A stretch of DNA of 64,000 bases, from NCBI RefSeq assembly GCF_009911645.1, contig NZ_QWKI01000004.1, forward strand, positions 62,001-126,000, given 5' to 3'. The stretch is from Pseudoflavonifractor sp. 60. Its GTDB lineage: Bacteria > Bacillota > Clostridia > Oscillospirales > Oscillospiraceae. The position numbers were made by a program, and so were the translations under genes. The notes beneath the pieces were generated by a model, which had not been told where the DNA came from, did not search any database, and saw only the letters and a program-made list of their open reading frames with translations. Positions 50,869 through 59,856 of the stretch are shown here, piece after piece. Numbering within the stretch: the stretch's first letter is position 1; every line of letters starts with the position of its first letter.

Positions 50869-52896
50869 TCAGGCGGCGGTGATATGTTTTGCACCCATGC
50901 GCTGGAAAATGACCACACCGGCCACGACCACCAGGCCAATCACGTCGGTGAGCTCACCGGGGATCATCATGCACAGGCCACCGGCGGCAATCAGAATCCG
51001 GAACAGGGGGTTGATGGGCCGGTAGAGATAGCCGTTCAGCGCAGAGGCCACGCCGAAAAGTCCGGCCAGAGAGGTGACAATAATGAGGACAGCCTGAACG
51101 ATCTTCATAGTCATGGTAGTGCCCTCCTCAAACTGGAAGAGCATGGTGGGATTCAGCGCGAAGATATAGGGCACCACAAAGGCGGCAATGGCCAGCTTTG
51201 TGGCGTTGAAAGCCGTCTTCATCGGAGTAGACTTGGCGATGGCGGAGCCGGCGTAGGCGGCCAGAGCCACAGGGGGCGTAATATCGGCCACGATGCCAAA
51301 GTAGAAGACGAAGAAGTGGGCCGCAATCATGGGCACGCCGATCTGCTCGCTCATCAGGATGGGGGCGCAGGTGGCAGCCATGATGCAGTAGTTGGCGGTG
51401 GTGGGCACGCCCATGCCCAACACGATACAGCACAGCATGGTGAGGAACAGGGCGATGATGGTCACGCCGCCGGAGACAGACACAATGGTCCGCAGCAGGA
51501 TATTGGCCAGACCAGTGGTGGTGATGCACCCGGCCACCAGACCCGCCATAGCGCAGGCGGCGGCCACGGTGATGGTGCCCTTGGCGCCCGCCTCCAGGGA
51601 GTCCAGCACCTTCATAAAGCTGATGTTGTCCGTCTTGTCCTCGTTCCCGGTCAGGTGGTTCACCACATTGTTGATGAGACCCACCACAATGGTGACCAGG
51701 ATGGCAATGGCAGCGGAGAACTGCATGGTCCGGGTACCGCTGGACACCATCGCCACCAGGATAATCAGGGGCAGCAGCAGATAGATCTTGGGCAGCAGCT
51801 TCGTGAATTTCGGCAGCTGCTCCTTGGGGATGCCCTTCAGACCCAGCTTCTTGGCCTCCAGATGGACGGCGATAAAGATGCCGGTGAAGTACAGCAGAGC
51901 AGGCAGAACGGCCAGCAGAGCGATCTGGGCATAGGGGAAACCGGTGTACTCAGACATGAGGAAGGCGGCGGCGCCCATGATGGGGGGCATGATCTGACCG
52001 CCGGTAGAGGCGGCGGCCTCCACCGCACCGGCAAACTCGCCCTTGTAGCCGGTCTTCTTCATCATGGGGATGGTGACAGAGCCGGTAGTGACGGTATTGC
52101 CCACTGAGGAGCCGGACACCATGCCGCACAGGGCGGAGGAGATAACGGCCACCTTGGCCGGGCCGCCGGAGGCAGAGCCGGCCACACAGTTGGCTAGGTT
52201 GATAAAGAAGGCGGAGATTCCGGTGCGCTCCAAAAACGCGCCAAAAATGATGAACACCACGATAAACTTCTGGCAGGTGGCGATGGGGGTTCCGATGATG
52301 CCGCTGGTGGTGTAGAACAGGTCATAGATGACCTTGCCGAAACGGACCTGGGTAAAGGCGTAGATCAGCAGCACGCCCACCACGCACAGGATGGGGATGC
52401 CCACACTGCGGCGGCACAGCTCGATCATGGCCAGTGCGCCCAAAATCGCCAGGGTCAGCATCATGGGGTCCTTGGAGGCGGCTACCGCGCTGGTAGTCTT
52501 GATGGTGGAGGCATTGATGGCGAAGTAGAAGAAGGGAGCGGAGCCCACCACCATAATGATAATATCATACCAGGGCAGGCTGTTGGGCTTGACATTGCCC
52601 TTGCGCATGGGGAAATTCAGGTATCCAATCACAACCACCAGGCCCACAAACATGGCCAGGCGGAATTCAGGCAGACGGGTGTCCCACAGGGTCAGGTACA
52701 GGCAGAAGAGGGAGAAGCCGATAAAAATGCACTTGACCGCCCACTTCTGCCAGCCCTCCCATATGCGCACGTTGGACTCCCGGTCATACTTTTTCATGAC
52801 CTCTTCCAGGTCAGCGGCACTGCCAGTGTCCTGGCTGTCCACAGCCGCCTCGCTCACTGGAGGAGCAGATCCCTTTTCTTTCTTCCAAAAGCTCAC
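50869..52896 (-). CDS. TAXI-TRAP transporter fused permease (DctQ-DctM type)
   Basis: About 675 residues with around 16-18 hydrophobic segments. The N-terminal part carries the small-permease (4-segment) domain, and the main part the large permease, with SGSSVGNTVTTGSVTIPMMK near residue 270 and GGQIMPPIMGAAAFLMSEYTG near 305, which are typical of fused TAXI-type permeases. Start GTG 52896 lies 8 bases after AAAGGAG. It works with the binding lipoprotein encoded upstream to import a carboxylate using Na+ or H+. Family members take glutamate, 2-oxoglutarate and similar acids; the substrate is not readable. Confidence 0.92.
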   Translation of the reverse strand: MSFWKKEKGSAPPVSEAAVDSQDTGSAADLEEVMKKYDRESNVRIWEGWQKWAVKCIFIGFSLFCLYLTLWDTRLPEFRLAMFVGLVVVIGYLNFPMRKGNVKPNSLPWYDIIIMVVGSAPFFYFAINASTIKTTSAVAASKDPMMLTLAILGALAMIELCRRSVGIPILCVVGVLLIYAFTQVRFGKVIYDLFYTTSGIIGTPIATCQKFIVVFIIFGAFLERTGISAFFINLANCVAGSASGGPAKVAVISSALCGMVSGSSVGNTVTTGSVTIPMMKKTGYKGEFAGAVEAAASTGGQIMPPIMGAAAFLMSEYTGFPYAQIALLAVLPALLYFTGIFIAVHLEAKKLGLKGIPKEQLPKFTKLLPKIYLLLPLIILVAMVSSGTRTMQFSAAIAILVTIVVGLINNVVNHLTGNEDKTDNISFMKVLDSLEAGAKGTITVAAACAMAGLVAGCITTTGLANILLRTIVSVSGGVTIIALFLTMLCCIVLGMGVPTTANYCIMAATCAPILMSEQIGVPMIAAHFFVFYFGIVADITPPVALAAYAGSAIAKSTPMKTAFNATKLAIAAFVVPYIFALNPTMLFQFEEGTTMTMKIVQAVLIIVTSLAGLFGVASALNGYLYRPINPLFRILIAAGGLCMMIPGELTDVIGLVVVAGVVIFQRMGAKHITAA

Positions 52897-52986
52897 ATTC
52901 TTCTCTCCTTTCAATCTTTTCCTTCCAACCCGCCCAGCGGCCTAATCCCTCCCAGGAGGACAGGGACAAATTTGGAAGCTCCTTTC

Positions 52987-53096
52987 CTTCCGATCCTGTT
53001 TCCTGCTCCCCGCCTCTCCCCCGGCGCCGGGAACACGAAACAGGATCGGAAGCCTGATAACAGATGGACTGCGGCGGAACAAATCCACCGCAGTCC
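52987..53096. repeat. Two strong hairpins between the TAXI binding-protein and permease genes
   Basis: A 16-bp perfect inverted repeat, CTTCCGATCCTGTTTC (52987-53002) with its complement at 53037-53052, enclosing a G/C-rich loop, and GGACTGCGG / CCGCAGTCC (53066-53074 with 53088-53096). Neither is followed by a T-run. They lie 26 bases after the binding-protein stop, where they could protect its mRNA and raise its level relative to the permease. Confidence 0.75.
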
Positions 53097-53122
53097 GATG
53101 GCTGCTCGAAAAATTTAATGGG

Positions 53123-54130
53123 TTAATTGGTGGGAACAGTGAAGCCCTTTTCGCTGAAGTACTTGGCAGCGCCGGAATGATAGGGCACAGCGGTAACGCT
53201 GGCGGCAAACTCCAGGCTCAGCTCGCTCTTCTTGTCGTGGCTCAGCGTATCGATGCTGTCAAAGATGCCAGCGCAGACGTTGTAGATGTCGTCCTCGGTG
53301 CAGTCGTTCCGGGCGATGATAACGGCGCCCACGGCCACGGTGGTGGCGTCAGCGTCCAGGTTATAGGCGTCCTTAGAGATGACATTCTTAGTGTAGTAGG
53401 GGGAGGCGGCGATCAGCTTGTCGATGTGCTCGTCGTCCAGCTCCACCACATAGACGTCGCGGGTGGCGGCCAGAGCGGTGACGGCGGTGGTGGGCGCACC
53501 GGCCACGATGAACGCGGCGTCGATCTTGCCGTCCTGGAGGGCGTCAGCGCTGTCGCCGAAGGACTGGTAGGTGGGGTTGATATCGTCCAGGGTCAGGTCG
53601 TAGGCGGTGAGCACGTCAATGGCGTTGAAGTAAACGCCGGAGCCGTTCTCGCCCACGGAGACGTTCTTGCCGGCCAGGTCGGCAACTGTCTTGATCTCGG
53701 GGTTCAGGGTGATGATCTGGACCTGCTCCATGTACAGGGCGGCCACGGTGGAGAAGCTGTCGATCTTCTCGGTGAACAGGCTGGTGCCCTCATAGGCGTA
53801 GGCCATAACGTCGGACTGGACGAAGCCCAGCTGAGCGTCGTTGGCGTCCATGTTCTCGATGTTGCCCTTGGAGCCGGCCCCCACAATGGCGTTGACGGTG
53901 GTGCCGGTCTTGTCGCTGATCTGGCCGGCAATGACGCTGCCGAAAGCGTAGTAGGTGCCGGACTCGCCGCCGGTGGTGAAGGTGAGGGTGCCGCCCTTGG
54001 CGCTGTTGGAGGGCTGGCTGCCGCCGCCGGCACTTCCGCCGCCGTCTTGGCTGTTATTGCCGCCGCAGGCGGTCAGCGCCAGGCCCATGGTCATCACCAG
54101 GGCGAGGGCAAATGCAAGTTTTTTCTTCAT
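53123..54130 (-). CDS. TAXI-family TRAP transporter solute-binding lipoprotein
   Basis: 335 residues. A lipoprotein signal ends in LALTAC (Cys about 22), then a Gly/Ser-rich linker. The binding domain starts GTLTFTTGGESGTYYAFGSV, the family signature, with VGAGSKGNIENMDANDAQLG near 95 and VSVGENGSGVYFNAIDVL near 155. It captures the substrate for the fused permease downstream. GGAGG lies 7 bases before ATG 54130. Confidence 0.93.
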   Translation of the reverse strand: MKKKLAFALALVMTMGLALTACGGNNSQDGGGSAGGGSQPSNSAKGGTLTFTTGGESGTYYAFGSVIAGQISDKTGTTVNAIVGAGSKGNIENMDANDAQLGFVQSDVMAYAYEGTSLFTEKIDSFSTVAALYMEQVQIITLNPEIKTVADLAGKNVSVGENGSGVYFNAIDVLTAYDLTLDDINPTYQSFGDSADALQDGKIDAAFIVAGAPTTAVTALAATRDVYVVELDDEHIDKLIAASPYYTKNVISKDAYNLDADATTVAVGAVIIARNDCTEDDIYNVCAGIFDSIDTLSHDKKSELSLEFAASVTAVPYHSGAAKYFSEKGFTVPTN

Positions 54131-54160
54131 ACTCTTTCCTCCATATTTCAAATTGGCGTT

Positions 54161-54235
54161 GCTCTCACCTTTATAAGGTGAGAGCAAAAAGCGCTAGCGC
54201 TTTTTGCCGTTATCCGCGGGCACCCCTGCCCGCAG
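54161..54235 (-). promoter_or_regulatory. Leader of the TAXI-TRAP operon with three successive hairpins
   Basis: In transcript order: GCGGGC-x-GCCCGC (54233-54216), a 24-base perfect palindrome built of GCAAAAAGCGCT and its complement (54207-54184), and GCTCTCACCTT-ATA-AAGGTGAGAGC (54185-54161). The last two share two bases, so their full forms exclude each other. The ribosome site follows 17 bases later. Confidence 0.6.
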
Positions 54236-54239
54236 CTAC

Positions 54240-54268
54240 AGTATACTACATCTTACCCAAAAATGCAA
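54240..54268 (-). promoter_or_regulatory. Promoter of the TAXI-TRAP operon
   Basis: On the minus strand TTGCAT (54268-54263), 17-base spacer, TATACT (54245-54240). The predicted leader is about 100 bases. Confidence 0.7.
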
Positions 54269-54538
54269 GATACTTTTTCGCTCCGCCCCTGGGCCCGAGC
54301 CTGTAAATAAGTTTTCATATAACTCAGAAAGTATCACCCGGTACAAAACAGCAGAGGGATATAAAGCCGAGACCAGAGGAGCCGCCCAAGGTATCAGGGC
54401 ATTCCGCCAGTCTGCTTCTGCATTTCGGTTAAAAGGGGGCTCACTGCACTGGAAGTTCCAATAAAATCACATCCTGCCGCTAAATTCGGCCCAGCACCCC
54501 ATCCTCTCCTCGTGATGAATTTGTTTACACTTTGGACG
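54269..54538. other. Intergenic stretch without a recognisable gene
   Basis: Separates the TAXI-TRAP promoter (minus) from the promoter of the rhomboid-like gene (plus). No open frame with a ribosome site, RNA motif or strong repeat seen. Confidence 0.5.
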
Positions 54539-54602: not shown

Positions 54603-55469
54603 ATGAGAACTCTGTCCCGCTGGCTGTCCCGCTTCAGCTATAACCACCCCAACCTGCGTGTGGAAGGGCTGATCCGCTACATCATTGCCGGCAATCTGTT
54701 GGTCTTTATGCTGGACCTGTTTACCCACGGCGCGTCCACCTACTGGCTGTACTTTGTCCCCAGCCTCATTTTCCGGGGACAGGTTTGGCGGCTAATCACC
54801 TTCATTTTTGTCCCCATGAGCTTCAGCCCCCTGAACTTTGTGCTGTCCACCGCTTTCTTCTACTTCATGGGGACCCGGCTGGAGGCCGCCTGGGGCGCCG
54901 CCCGGTTCACCGTCTACTATGGCCTGGGGGTTATCCTGAACATCGTGGTGGGCCTGCTGCTGGCCCTGATTAACCCCGCCTACCGGGCTTTTGTCACCGC
55001 CGATATGCAGTACCTCCACCTGTCCCTCTTCTTTGCCTATGCAACCCTCTACCCCGACCTCCAGGTGCTGGCCCTCTTCTTCATCCCCATCCGCATCAAG
55101 TGGCTGGCCCTGCTGGACGCCGCCTTGTTTGCCTATGAGATTCTGGTCTACCTCTCCTACGGACAGTTTGCCATGGCACTGCTGCCCATTATCTCCATTT
55201 TTAACTACCTGATCTTCTTCTGGGATGATCTGATGGATTACCTGAACCGCGGGAGGGCCAGGGTCCAGCACCAGCGCTCCTCCCAGACCATCAACTTCAA
55301 AAAGGCCCAGCGGGAGCTCCAGCAGCGCCGGGGCTATCTGCACAAGTGCTCTGTGTGCGGCGTCACCGACCGGGACAACCCGGATATGGAATTTCGCTAC
55401 TGCTCCAAGTGCAACGGCTACTACTGCTACTGCGCCAATCACATTAACAACCACACCCATGTGCAGTGA
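54603..55469 (+). CDS. Rhomboid-like membrane protein with C-terminal zinc-ribbon-like domain
   Basis: 288 residues. Five to six hydrophobic segments (about 25-205) in rhomboid order, with ...WRLITFIFVPMSF and FFYFMGTRLEAAWGAARFTV recalling rhomboid helices 1-2 and the loop. The catalytic GxSG Ser motif is not present where the fourth helix should carry it (TADMQYLHLSLFFAY), so it is probably an inactive or derlin-like member. The C-terminus has CSVCG, YCSKCNGYYCYC and HINNHTH, a likely metal-binding ribbon facing the cytoplasm. Monocistronic. Function unknown. Confidence 0.75.
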   Translation: MRTLSRWLSRFSYNHPNLRVEGLIRYIIAGNLLVFMLDLFTHGASTYWLYFVPSLIFRGQVWRLITFIFVPMSFSPLNFVLSTAFFYFMGTRLEAAWGAARFTVYYGLGVILNIVVGLLLALINPAYRAFVTADMQYLHLSLFFAYATLYPDLQVLALFFIPIRIKWLALLDAALFAYEILVYLSYGQFAMALLPIISIFNYLIFFWDDLMDYLNRGRARVQHQRSSQTINFKKAQRELQQRRGYLHKCSVCGVTDRDNPDMEFRYCSKCNGYYCYCANHINNHTHVQ

Positions 55470-58579: not shown

Positions 58580-59755
58580 TTACTCGGTCTGGAAGCGGCC
58601 GGTATCGCCAGTGTTGGCGCCGGCAGAAGCCAGGGCGGTCATAACCTCTTCGATATAGGTGCTGATGTTGGCGGTAGCATCCTCGAAGTCGTAGTCCATC
58701 ACGTTGTTGGGGTCCAGCCCGAAGTCATAGGCGGCCTGGGGCTGCTCGGCGTTGTCCAGAACCAGGAACTGGTAGGAACCCACCTCATCGGCCTGGTTCA
58801 CGCAGTCGGGAGACAGGGCATATTCAATCCACAGCTTGGCGGCGTTGGGATGGGCAGCGCCCTTGAAGATGGCAGTGGCACCAATCTCGCAGGAGGTGCC
58901 GCTGGAGGGGATAATCAGCTCGATGTTCTCATAGCCGTTGTCCAGAATCTGAGTAATGCCGTCGTGGAGGAAGCCGATGCCGATAACGCACTCGCCGGTG
59001 CCCACGTTTTTGGAGGGGCCGGAACCGGACTTGGTGTAGACCTCGATATTCTTATCCAGGTCCACCAGGTACTGGATGCCTTCGTCGTGGCCGTACTTCT
59101 GGATCATGGTGTTGATGACCAGTTTGGCGGTGCCGGCGGTGTTGTAGTTGGACAGCCAAATCAGTCCCTGGTACTCGGGCTTGAGCAGGTCGGGCCAATC
59201 CTGGGGGGCCTCCAGATTCATCCGGGCCAGCTCGTCCTTGTTGACCATGAAGCCCAGAATGCCGGTGTAGATGCCGTGCCACATATTGTCGGAGTGCTTA
59301 TACACATCCTTGGTGATGTGGGAGGCGTTGATGGCCTCATAGGGCTCCAGCAGACCCTCGGCAGCCACCACATTGTAGGGATCGGTGGTGCCGCCAAACC
59401 AGACGTCGGCGGAGGGATTGCCGTTCTCCTCCTCAATCTTGGCCTGGACCTCGCCGGTGGACAGGCGCTGGAAGGTGGTCTTGATGCCGTACATCTGCTC
59501 AAACTTCTCACAGGCTGCGGCCAGGTAGTCCTCCTCGCAGGAGCCGTAAACCACCAGCTCGCCCTCGGCCTTGGCGGCCTCGATCAGCGCGTCCATCCCG
59601 TCGGTGGGAGCAGGAGTGCTGGAGCCGCCCTGGGAAGAGCCGCCCTGACTGCCGCCGCTGGACTGACCGCCTTGATTCCCTGAGTTTCCTCCGCCGCAGG
59701 CAGCCAGAGACAGAACCATGGCCGACGCCAGCAGTATGGATAGTACTTTCTTCAC
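58580..59755 (-). CDS. ABC transporter substrate-binding lipoprotein (FbpA-like)
   Basis: 391 residues. The lipoprotein signal ends in LSLAAC (Cys about 20), followed by a Gly/Ser-rich spacer. The mature part has VYGSCEEDYLAAACEKFEQM and ADVWFGGTTDPYNVVAAEGLL, the layout of the ferric/thiamine/AEP class of binding proteins. GTG 59755 follows GGAGGAATG by a short spacing. It is the first gene of the operon under a clear promoter. Iron is a reasonable guess, not a demonstration. Confidence 0.88.
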   Translation of the reverse strand: MKKVLSILLASAMVLSLAACGGGNSGNQGGQSSGGSQGGSSQGGSSTPAPTDGMDALIEAAKAEGELVVYGSCEEDYLAAACEKFEQMYGIKTTFQRLSTGEVQAKIEEENGNPSADVWFGGTTDPYNVVAAEGLLEPYEAINASHITKDVYKHSDNMWHGIYTGILGFMVNKDELARMNLEAPQDWPDLLKPEYQGLIWLSNYNTAGTAKLVINTMIQKYGHDEGIQYLVDLDKNIEVYTKSGSGPSKNVGTGECVIGIGFLHDGITQILDNGYENIELIIPSSGTSCEIGATAIFKGAAHPNAAKLWIEYALSPDCVNQADEVGSYQFLVLDNAEQPQAAYDFGLDPNNVMDYDFEDATANISTYIEEVMTALASAGANTGDTGRFQTE

Positions 59756-59828
59756 GTTTCATTCCTCCATTTTCGTTTTCATCCCTTGACTTGCAGGGGG
59801 TGCTGCCCCTGTTCCGCAGGACTCCCTT

Positions 59829-59856
59829 ATTGTAGAACGCTAAGGAAAAAAGTCAA
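59829..59856 (-). promoter_or_regulatory. Promoter of the FbpA-like ABC operon
   Basis: On the minus strand TTGACT (59856-59851), 16-base spacer, TACAAT (59834-59829). The predicted 70-base leader contains the small hairpin CAGGGG / CCCCTG near 59795-59811. Confidence 0.75.

Follow-up and report, generated by a model that had tools for sequence, protein, structure and literature searches.

Transporters commonly require more of their binding protein than of the permease with which it works. In Escherichia coli, the 5′ UTR of ompA is built of a 5′-terminal hairpin, a single-stranded linker, a second structured element and a single-stranded Shine-Dalgarno region. Together with ompA, the aprE and vacA leaders are given as precedents of 5′ leader stabilisers in the accessible part of PMC7509114. 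According to PMC3997798, long regions of a Bacillus subtilis message can be stabilised by a hairpin that stands upstream of them, at the 5′ end or close to it, and the pyrophosphohydrolase BsRppH requires at least 2 unpaired 5′ bases. In Clostridium, intergenic stem-loops set the stoichiometry of operons, according to the accessible sections of PMC8219983. Here, we analyse a leader with three successive hairpins, found in a stretch of 64,000 nucleotides from Pseudoflavonifractor sp. 60 (the whole of which is called the window hereafter), and ask how it compares with these systems.

The leader of the TAXI-TRAP operon

The binding-protein gene of a TAXI-TRAP operon starts at 54130 on the minus strand, and the hairpins stand between its start codon and a predicted promoter upstream. 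The features of the locus, in the direction of transcription, are the following:

54240..54268 (−): predicted promoter, read from the sequence, with −35 TTGCAT at 54268-54263, a 17-base spacer and −10 TATACT at 54245-54240
54216..54233 (−): H1, 5′-terminal hairpin GCGGGCA-GGGG-TGCCCGC, 7 bp with a loop of 4
54184..54207 (−): H2, 24-base perfect palindrome GCAAAAAGCGCTAGCGCTTTTTGC, with A5/T5 arms
54159..54187 (−): H3, TTGCTCTCACCTT-ATA-AAGGTGAGAGCAA, core of 11 bp and maximum of 13 bp, with a loop of 3
54155..54208 (−): three-way junction closed by P1 (GGC 54208-54206 with GCC 54157-54155), in the minimum-energy and centroid folds
54138..54142 (−): Shine-Dalgarno GGAGG of the binding-protein gene, read from the sequence
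53123..54130 (−): gene of a TAXI-type TRAP solute-binding lipoprotein of 335 aa (Pfam PF16868, E 1.3e-67)
53066..53096 (−): intergenic hairpin of 13 bp, after the binding-protein gene and before the permease gene, −26 kcal/mol, terminator-like in the scan, with ATCTGTTATC after the stem
50869..52914 (−): gene of a TRAP permease (DctM domain), next downstream (Pfam PF06808, E 2.5e-88)

The initial annotation had assigned the leader to a TAXI-TRAP operon, and the succession of a PF16868 binding lipoprotein and a DctM permease bears this out; solved relatives of the binding protein (e.g. 8s4j, 9ibo, 1us4) are named TAXI TRAP subunits. The divergent neighbour, at 54603, is rhomboid-like, barely over the Pfam cut-off. 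The hairpins had also been taken as leader elements, in agreement with a predicted promoter that lies upstream of all three. In 21/21 hairpin-bearing leaders, a TATAAT-like −10 is preceded, at a spacer of 17, by a TTG-type −35; the search made TTG obligatory, accepted spacers of 16 to 18 and favoured 17. From these boxes, we infer a transcript start around 54233, at the foot of H1. Elsewhere in the window (59755-59840, minus strand), a CAGGGG/CCCCTG hairpin stands alone near the predicted transcript start of a second binding-protein-like gene, which has a GTG start.

All three inverted repeats described at the outset were recovered, with the lengths listed above. Of the perfect palindromes in the window, only two reach 18 bases; H2, with 24, is longer than the other, with 20. 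Three separate stems of at least 7 bp within 110 bases are found, window-wide, only in the stretch starting at 54131, and none were found in ten block-shuffled windows. The window leader RNA is predicted to fold at −47.3 kcal/mol, compared to −29.8 ± 3.2 in shuffles (z −5.4, 0/200), and the leader folds of four relatives gave z values of −4.5, −4.8, −2.4 and −4.7. As noted initially, H2 and H3 share bases (4 of them, 54184-54187), but the mutual exclusion that had been proposed on this ground did not hold: in the minimum-energy structure of the window the two co-fold as a three-way junction, at the cost of the three outer pairs of H2 and one pair of H3.

Distribution and covariation of the module

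A protein scan of GTDB genomes yielded 38 loci. With a threshold of E 1e-40, the binding protein was found in 51 of the 64 genomes of the genus, many of the matches having 30-45% identity. Among the 33 same-genus loci that were read, 21 have the three-hairpin layout (the module) ahead of the orthologous gene, and 12 carry the gene without it, meaning that the module is dispensable. L074 is a diverged carrier, with a weak covariance-model match (E 0.0025), and for L070 the count as a carrier comes from inspection by eye only. The carriers that bear a name are Flintibacter muris (L008, the leader of which is identical to L054) and MAGs labelled Lawsonibacter, Bacillota and uncultured Firmicutes.

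A covariance model of P1, H2 and H3, built from 7 sequences and giving rough E-values, produced one match at E<1e-9 in each of 19 of the 64 genus genomes, and all 19 strong matches stand before the binding-protein gene. A second, weak match was present in 13 of these 19 genomes, and in 8 cases its coordinates were those of the same place on the opposite strand. At E 0.05 or better, some match was obtained in 33/64 genomes, the 19 strong ones included. Among the weak matches, L104 (G057) is a TAXI leader module, the locus of L108 is cut by a contig end, and several matches without an extracted locus are, by coordinates, the opposite strand of a strong match. On viewing, L102, L103, L105-L107 and L109-L112 proved to be unrelated hairpins and were rejected as copies of the module. 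A draw of 400 genomes of the family was scanned with strict filters, the rows shown having 12 scored candidates per genome, and E 0.001 or better was reached in 6 genomes. Three of these matches are TAXI leaders (G000, G007, G047), and the other three, weak and from other genera (G140, G149, G153), are unlike copies of the module. No strong match lies ahead of another gene in the 64 genus and 400 family genomes scanned, and within these genomes the module is gene-specific. A dispersed repeat was discarded as well, the 160-base leader being single in its own genome besides its own inverted self-matches.

The Rfam search returned no family at gathering score in the leader, which fits the earlier view that it corresponds to no known riboswitch; the best match over the window leader was rli32, on the opposite strand, with 26.6 bits for a cut-off of 100. 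Word searches of the main texts of two structured-RNA surveys (PMC8040213 and PMC11109978) met no description of the motif, and none was found in the titles and abstract openings of the papers listed on TRAP leaders and on these genera. It is thus a gene-specific structured leader, with no earlier description found within the literature covered. Near the leader of one relative (L091 1741-1827, plus strand, G009), a weak tmRNA-like match was seen (26.9 bits, cut-off 47, E 4.9e-7).

Other leaders with hairpins were met in these genomes. The leader of a binding-protein gene from another genus (L083 1501-1607, G140), a gene which we take to be OppA-like, has three successive hairpins after a promoter-like TATAAT, with two perfect palindromes. 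A recurrent element is shared by six genomes (L102, L105, L106, L107, L109, L110), and consists of a hairpin around GAAGCCCCGCCGGGCTTC, TTTTGA and a conserved TTTTGTGAGAAGGAAGGAATGGAAAATCGAG. Rfam gave no family at gathering score in L083, L105, L106 and L109. On G007:C1, two genes, near 2184402 and 2003080, one of them presumably gyrA, are preceded by like hairpins with GTTCGGCTTCGCCGAAC and CTCCTTTCAAAAGGAG units, which are probably a dispersed repeat. In a census of leader hairpins over 209 genes, made with a crude ORF caller, 11 had two or more; the TAXI gene itself was missing from this census.

Covariation in orthologous leaders had been set in advance as the check on the hairpins, and it was observed. 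On the 18 model-fitted rows of alignment A4, 95.9% of the 338 cells of H2, H3 and P1 are standard pairs. Both sides changed in 12 of the 19 pairs (7/8 in H3, 4/8 in H2 and 1/3 in P1), for a total of 32 double-change cells, which do not amount to independent events, since A4 is fitted to the structure and leans towards it, 7 of its 18 rows built the model, and its rows are related (L056 and L057 are close). L070 and L074, which are diverged, and L053, a near-copy, are not part of this alignment. None of 500 column shuffles matched any of the five measures, and when the partners were slid by 1-3 columns, pairing fell to 38-58% of cells. P1 is paired in 98% of the A4 cells, with little variation. 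For H1, 98.9% of the cells on 19 rows are paired, with 22 double-change cells and 0/1000 shuffles as good, in a count where the stem was chosen for each leader, which favours the figure, where those of L051 and L059 were set by eye, and from which L053 and L095 were omitted. MAFFT misplaces H2 and H3 by one base in alignment A1, on which RNAalifold consequently detected only 6 pairs; A4 was used instead. A competing pairing, between the GGGC of H2 and the 3′ strand of P1, is inseparable from P1 by covariation as both are nearly invariant; the loss of the GGC/GCC match in L054 and L059 would weakly favour P1. We conclude that the leader holds genuine and unusual hairpins, the structure of which is conserved.

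The module is also repeatedly present or absent among close relatives: 8 changes of state are needed on a tree of 42 binding proteins, of which 21 have the module and 21 lack it, and at least 6 of the changes are forced by well-supported branches. Repeated loss is likelier than repeated gain, as the element is complex. In L072 and L065, the end of H1 runs directly into CCAAACTT before the Shine-Dalgarno, as if the module had been cleanly excised. The binding-protein gene of the window itself looks mosaic over 53066-54290: the segment 53066-54000 has 89% DNA identity to L007, a module-less MAG labelled Oscillibacter, and 54059-54282, comprising the signal peptide and the leader, aligns at 75.5% to the genus member L057 and not to L007. 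Either the mature part may have been exchanged while leader and signal peptide stayed, or the transfer may have gone the reverse way.

Termination, ribosome access and the symmetry of H2

The geometry of the leader had first been taken for that of a switch acting on early termination or on ribosome access. In such a regulatory switch, the junction or H2 would sense a ligand, a protein or an RNA, and control termination at H2 or entry of the ribosome. A gene-specific leader RNA, with one strong match per carrier genome, a junction, and an H3 that directly abuts H2 in most rows, speaks in its favour. H2 ends in 2-5 U, and its median terminator score of 2.95 is above that of 97% of in-gene controls, from which weak termination at H2 may take place. 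However, four leaders (L055, L060, L077, L095) have an interrupted U run, TTTCGCTC. The best terminator form in 16/21 leaders is a 4-bp G/C core of −3.5 to −5.9 kcal/mol, with 2-5 U directly after it; in 4 others, that of the window among them, the full stem with 3 U in 8 scores best. H2 does not show the intrinsic terminator shape of a G/C stem of at least 5 bp followed by a U run, and the window H2 was not flagged by the consensus terminator scan. Among 252 putative convergent gene ends of G007, which were obtained with the crude ORF caller and include false ones, 17% outscore the leader median, and H2 is not among the strong ones.

Access to the Shine-Dalgarno was followed in the same leaders. 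GGAGG precedes the start in 21/21 of them, as the search pattern required. Its pairing with upstream bases, which would suit a switch, is predicted in some leaders: with CCUC in L052 and L053, and, as a local CUCU/GGAG pairing over the Shine-Dalgarno, in the three related leaders L077, L095 and L098. In the predicted folds, Shine-Dalgarno pairing is 0.51, against 0.65 in shuffles (p 0.024), and reaches at least 0.7 in 5/21 leaders. No Shine-Dalgarno-hiding helix common to the leaders appears in these folds, where the partners differ, and no conserved anti-terminator or alternative helix was found in the leaders. The 5′ strand of H3 was considered as an anti-Shine-Dalgarno and rejected: by eye the pairing is possible with CTCTTCC and GGAAGAG only, and predicted folds do not use it. 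Nor did inspection by eye reveal a conserved start codon for a small upstream ORF in the leaders.

The loops of H2 and H3 vary freely, and conservation outside the stems lies mainly in the A-rich spacer and the Shine-Dalgarno. Near-invariant unpaired residues, as in a riboswitch aptamer, were not seen in alignments A1 and A4, and no pairing with a terminator or an anti-Shine-Dalgarno that would make an expression platform is common to the leaders. A riboswitch or attenuator was therefore set aside as best reading, being unsupported in view of the variable loops, the poor terminator at H2 and the missing shared Shine-Dalgarno helix. The initial proposal of mutually exclusive structures finds no support, given the predicted co-folding of H2 and H3, a U run that is short and often broken, and the lack of a common partner of the Shine-Dalgarno. 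Altogether, we consider a regulatory switch unlikely.

H2 shows a further property. Among the 18 rows with a four-base H2 loop, the centre is, by eye, self-complementary in 14, which are not 14 events as the rows are related; the outer pair is complementary in 18/18. Counted as distinct centres, 7 of 10 are self-complementary (CTAG, GATC, GGCC, AGCT, CATG, AATT and TATA, the others being GACC, GGTC and GTTC). The loop has three bases in L044, L054 and L056. In a sample of 800 kb of G007, hairpins with a stem of at least 7 and a four-base loop have a self-complementary centre in 15/233 cases, and a complementary outer pair in 74/233. A palindromic centre is a constraint that a plain RNA hairpin does not need. 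It could come from symmetry at the DNA level, from RNA pairing in trans, or from a local mutational process.

With symmetry at the DNA level, H2 would be an operator, bound by a dimeric protein that represses or activates, and its RNA hairpin would be a by-product. H2 is indeed a DNA palindrome without mismatch; self-complementary centres occur in 14/18 rows against 15/233 of the G007 hairpins, and its arm AAAAGCCC is better conserved than H3. However, one repressor would hardly tolerate a centre that changes freely together with an altered arm in the window (AAAAAGCG), and the exact 18-base core of H2 occurs once in the draft genome. In addition, P1 encloses H2 together with the covarying, abutting H3, an arrangement that suits an RNA better. 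We regard an operator as very unlikely.

As to a local mutational process, the leader could be a neutral structure, maintained by palindrome-perfecting template switching and often lost. Perfect palindromes are a signature of template switching, and the 8 changes on the binding-protein tree, with the module repeatedly present or absent among close relatives, speak in the same sense. Yet H1, H2 and H3 are retained, and in the same order from promoter to Shine-Dalgarno, in leaders of strongly divergent sequence. Moreover, the G007 sample shows no excess of perfect centres like that of H2, so that the process would have to be local. Neutrality appears improbable to us.

It is also conceivable, though we would not expect it, that the leader represents a novel, gene-specific class of leader RNAs, in which the H2 arm of a three-way junction is obliged to stay self-complementary through its centre. 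If this were true, two messages could pair through H2, or a dimeric protein could grip the RNA or the DNA, and the abundance of the message, or a regulator, would feed back on its own life or translation.

Predicted burial of the 5′ end and a proposed effect on message stability

The automatic pick of H1 begins 3-7 bases past the −10 in 19/21 leaders. In L051 and L059 it took an inner stem, and the folds of both show a stem at the predicted 5′ end. Thus, a hairpin lies at or next to the predicted 5′ end, as in 5′-terminal stem-loop stabilisers. Pairing of the 5′ end was computed with a predicted start set 7 bases past the −10, the placement of H1 resting on the promoter prediction. The first six bases of the predicted transcript are paired at a mean of 0.91, compared to 0.52 in dinucleotide shuffles, and 21/21 leaders are above the shuffle mean, L051 barely so (0.59). 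Among 75 promoter-gene pairs, taken from 800 kb of G007 and from the window with both TAXI leaders included, the median was 0.30, and the window and G007 TAXI leaders rank 1 and 2. For orthologous leaders without the module, 26 of the 44 loci were run (omitted were L017, which is the same as L061, L026-L033 and L035-L043). Their mean pairing was 0.52, and 4 exceeded 0.8 (L019, L020, L034, L073). Compared to the 0.91 of carriers, this means that burial of the 5′ end mostly goes with the module.

One of these module-less orthologs, L073 (G053), has a different leader of 116 bases, with a large 5′-paired structure of −42.8 kcal/mol. In 5 of the 21 leaders with the module (L052, L053, L062, L064, L077), the GCAAG of H1 is complementary to the CTTGC contained in AAA-CTT-GC codons of the signal peptide, and in the predicted fold of L062 this pairing replaces H1.

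Beyond the stop codon of the binding-protein gene, a hairpin of −20 kcal/mol or lower is present in 30 of the 36 loci examined. Most of these hairpins have a CTGCGG/CCGCAG theme, mostly with no U run after, and in the window no clean U tract follows the stem. In the remaining six loci, a weaker hairpin is found three times (−9.3, −9.3 and −11.3), and no notable one in L070, L076 and L079. The intergenic hairpin occurs in carriers and non-carriers of the leader module.

The reading that we prefer, and to which we give about an even chance of being right, is that the leader is a structured 5′ UTR acting in cis, which would prolong the life of the binding-protein mRNA while keeping the ribosome site usable. 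Transcription would start at the foot of H1 and produce a base-paired 5′ end, hard to engage for the pyrophosphohydrolase (RppH) and for the 5′-to-3′ RNase J. A linker would come next, then the compact three-way junction of P1, H2 and H3 as a further obstacle close to the ribosome site, and finally a short A-rich segment that contains the Shine-Dalgarno. The intergenic hairpin would guard the 3′ side, leader and hairpin together bracketing the binding-protein cistron. Such a bracketing would be expected where the binding protein is wanted in large excess over the permease.

We count in favour of a stabiliser the covariation, the pairing of the 5′ end, the absence of a common anti-Shine-Dalgarno helix in the predicted folds, the weak terminator score and the intergenic hairpin. 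On the other side, a stabiliser has no need for P1, for a flush H2/H3 junction or for a palindromic H2 centre, 12/33 genus loci do without the module, and Shine-Dalgarno pairing is just modestly below that of shuffles. P1 ends some 12 bases ahead of the Shine-Dalgarno. In B. subtilis, a stem-loop too near the Shine-Dalgarno lowered the stability of the ermC mRNA, as stated in the accessible part of PMC7509114, and stabilisation was rated slightly lower in view of this case. If it is correct, the leader and the intergenic hairpin offer a testable picture of gut Clostridia setting the binding-protein/permease ratio by message stability. For testing it, a natural presence/absence set exists within one genus, with 21 loci with and 12 without the module among the 33 read.

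Compared to known systems, the TAXI leader has a predicted 5′-terminal hairpin, linker, second structured element and Shine-Dalgarno region in the same order as the ompA 5′ UTR. The second element is a three-way junction here, and the likeness lies in the layout. The aprE and ermC leaders of Bacillus subtilis have a simpler hairpin than the TAXI leader. What they have in common with it is a 5′ hairpin which, with ribosome binding, protects a message in a Firmicute, according to the accessible parts of PMC7509114 and PMC3997798; their function was measured, whereas we infer that of the TAXI leader. The nucleases differ from those of the ompA case, Firmicutes using RNase J and E. coli RNase E (same part of PMC3997798). 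With the operons of Clostridium under selective RNA processing and stabilisation (SRPS), as presented in the available sections of PMC8219983, the locus shares an operon stem-loop, in the form of the hairpin after the binding-protein gene in 30/36 loci; SRPS concerns the 3′ stem-loops of selected genes, whereas the module is a 5′ leader. Riboswitches and other cis-regulatory leaders of Rfam are likewise conserved, covarying leader RNAs with a junction before a transporter gene, but the TAXI leader has no Rfam match at gathering score, and no conserved ligand-pocket residues or conserved expression platform were found in it. By its likely function, the TAXI leader would thus belong with the 5′ UTR stabilisers, with one odd constraint, the symmetry of H2.
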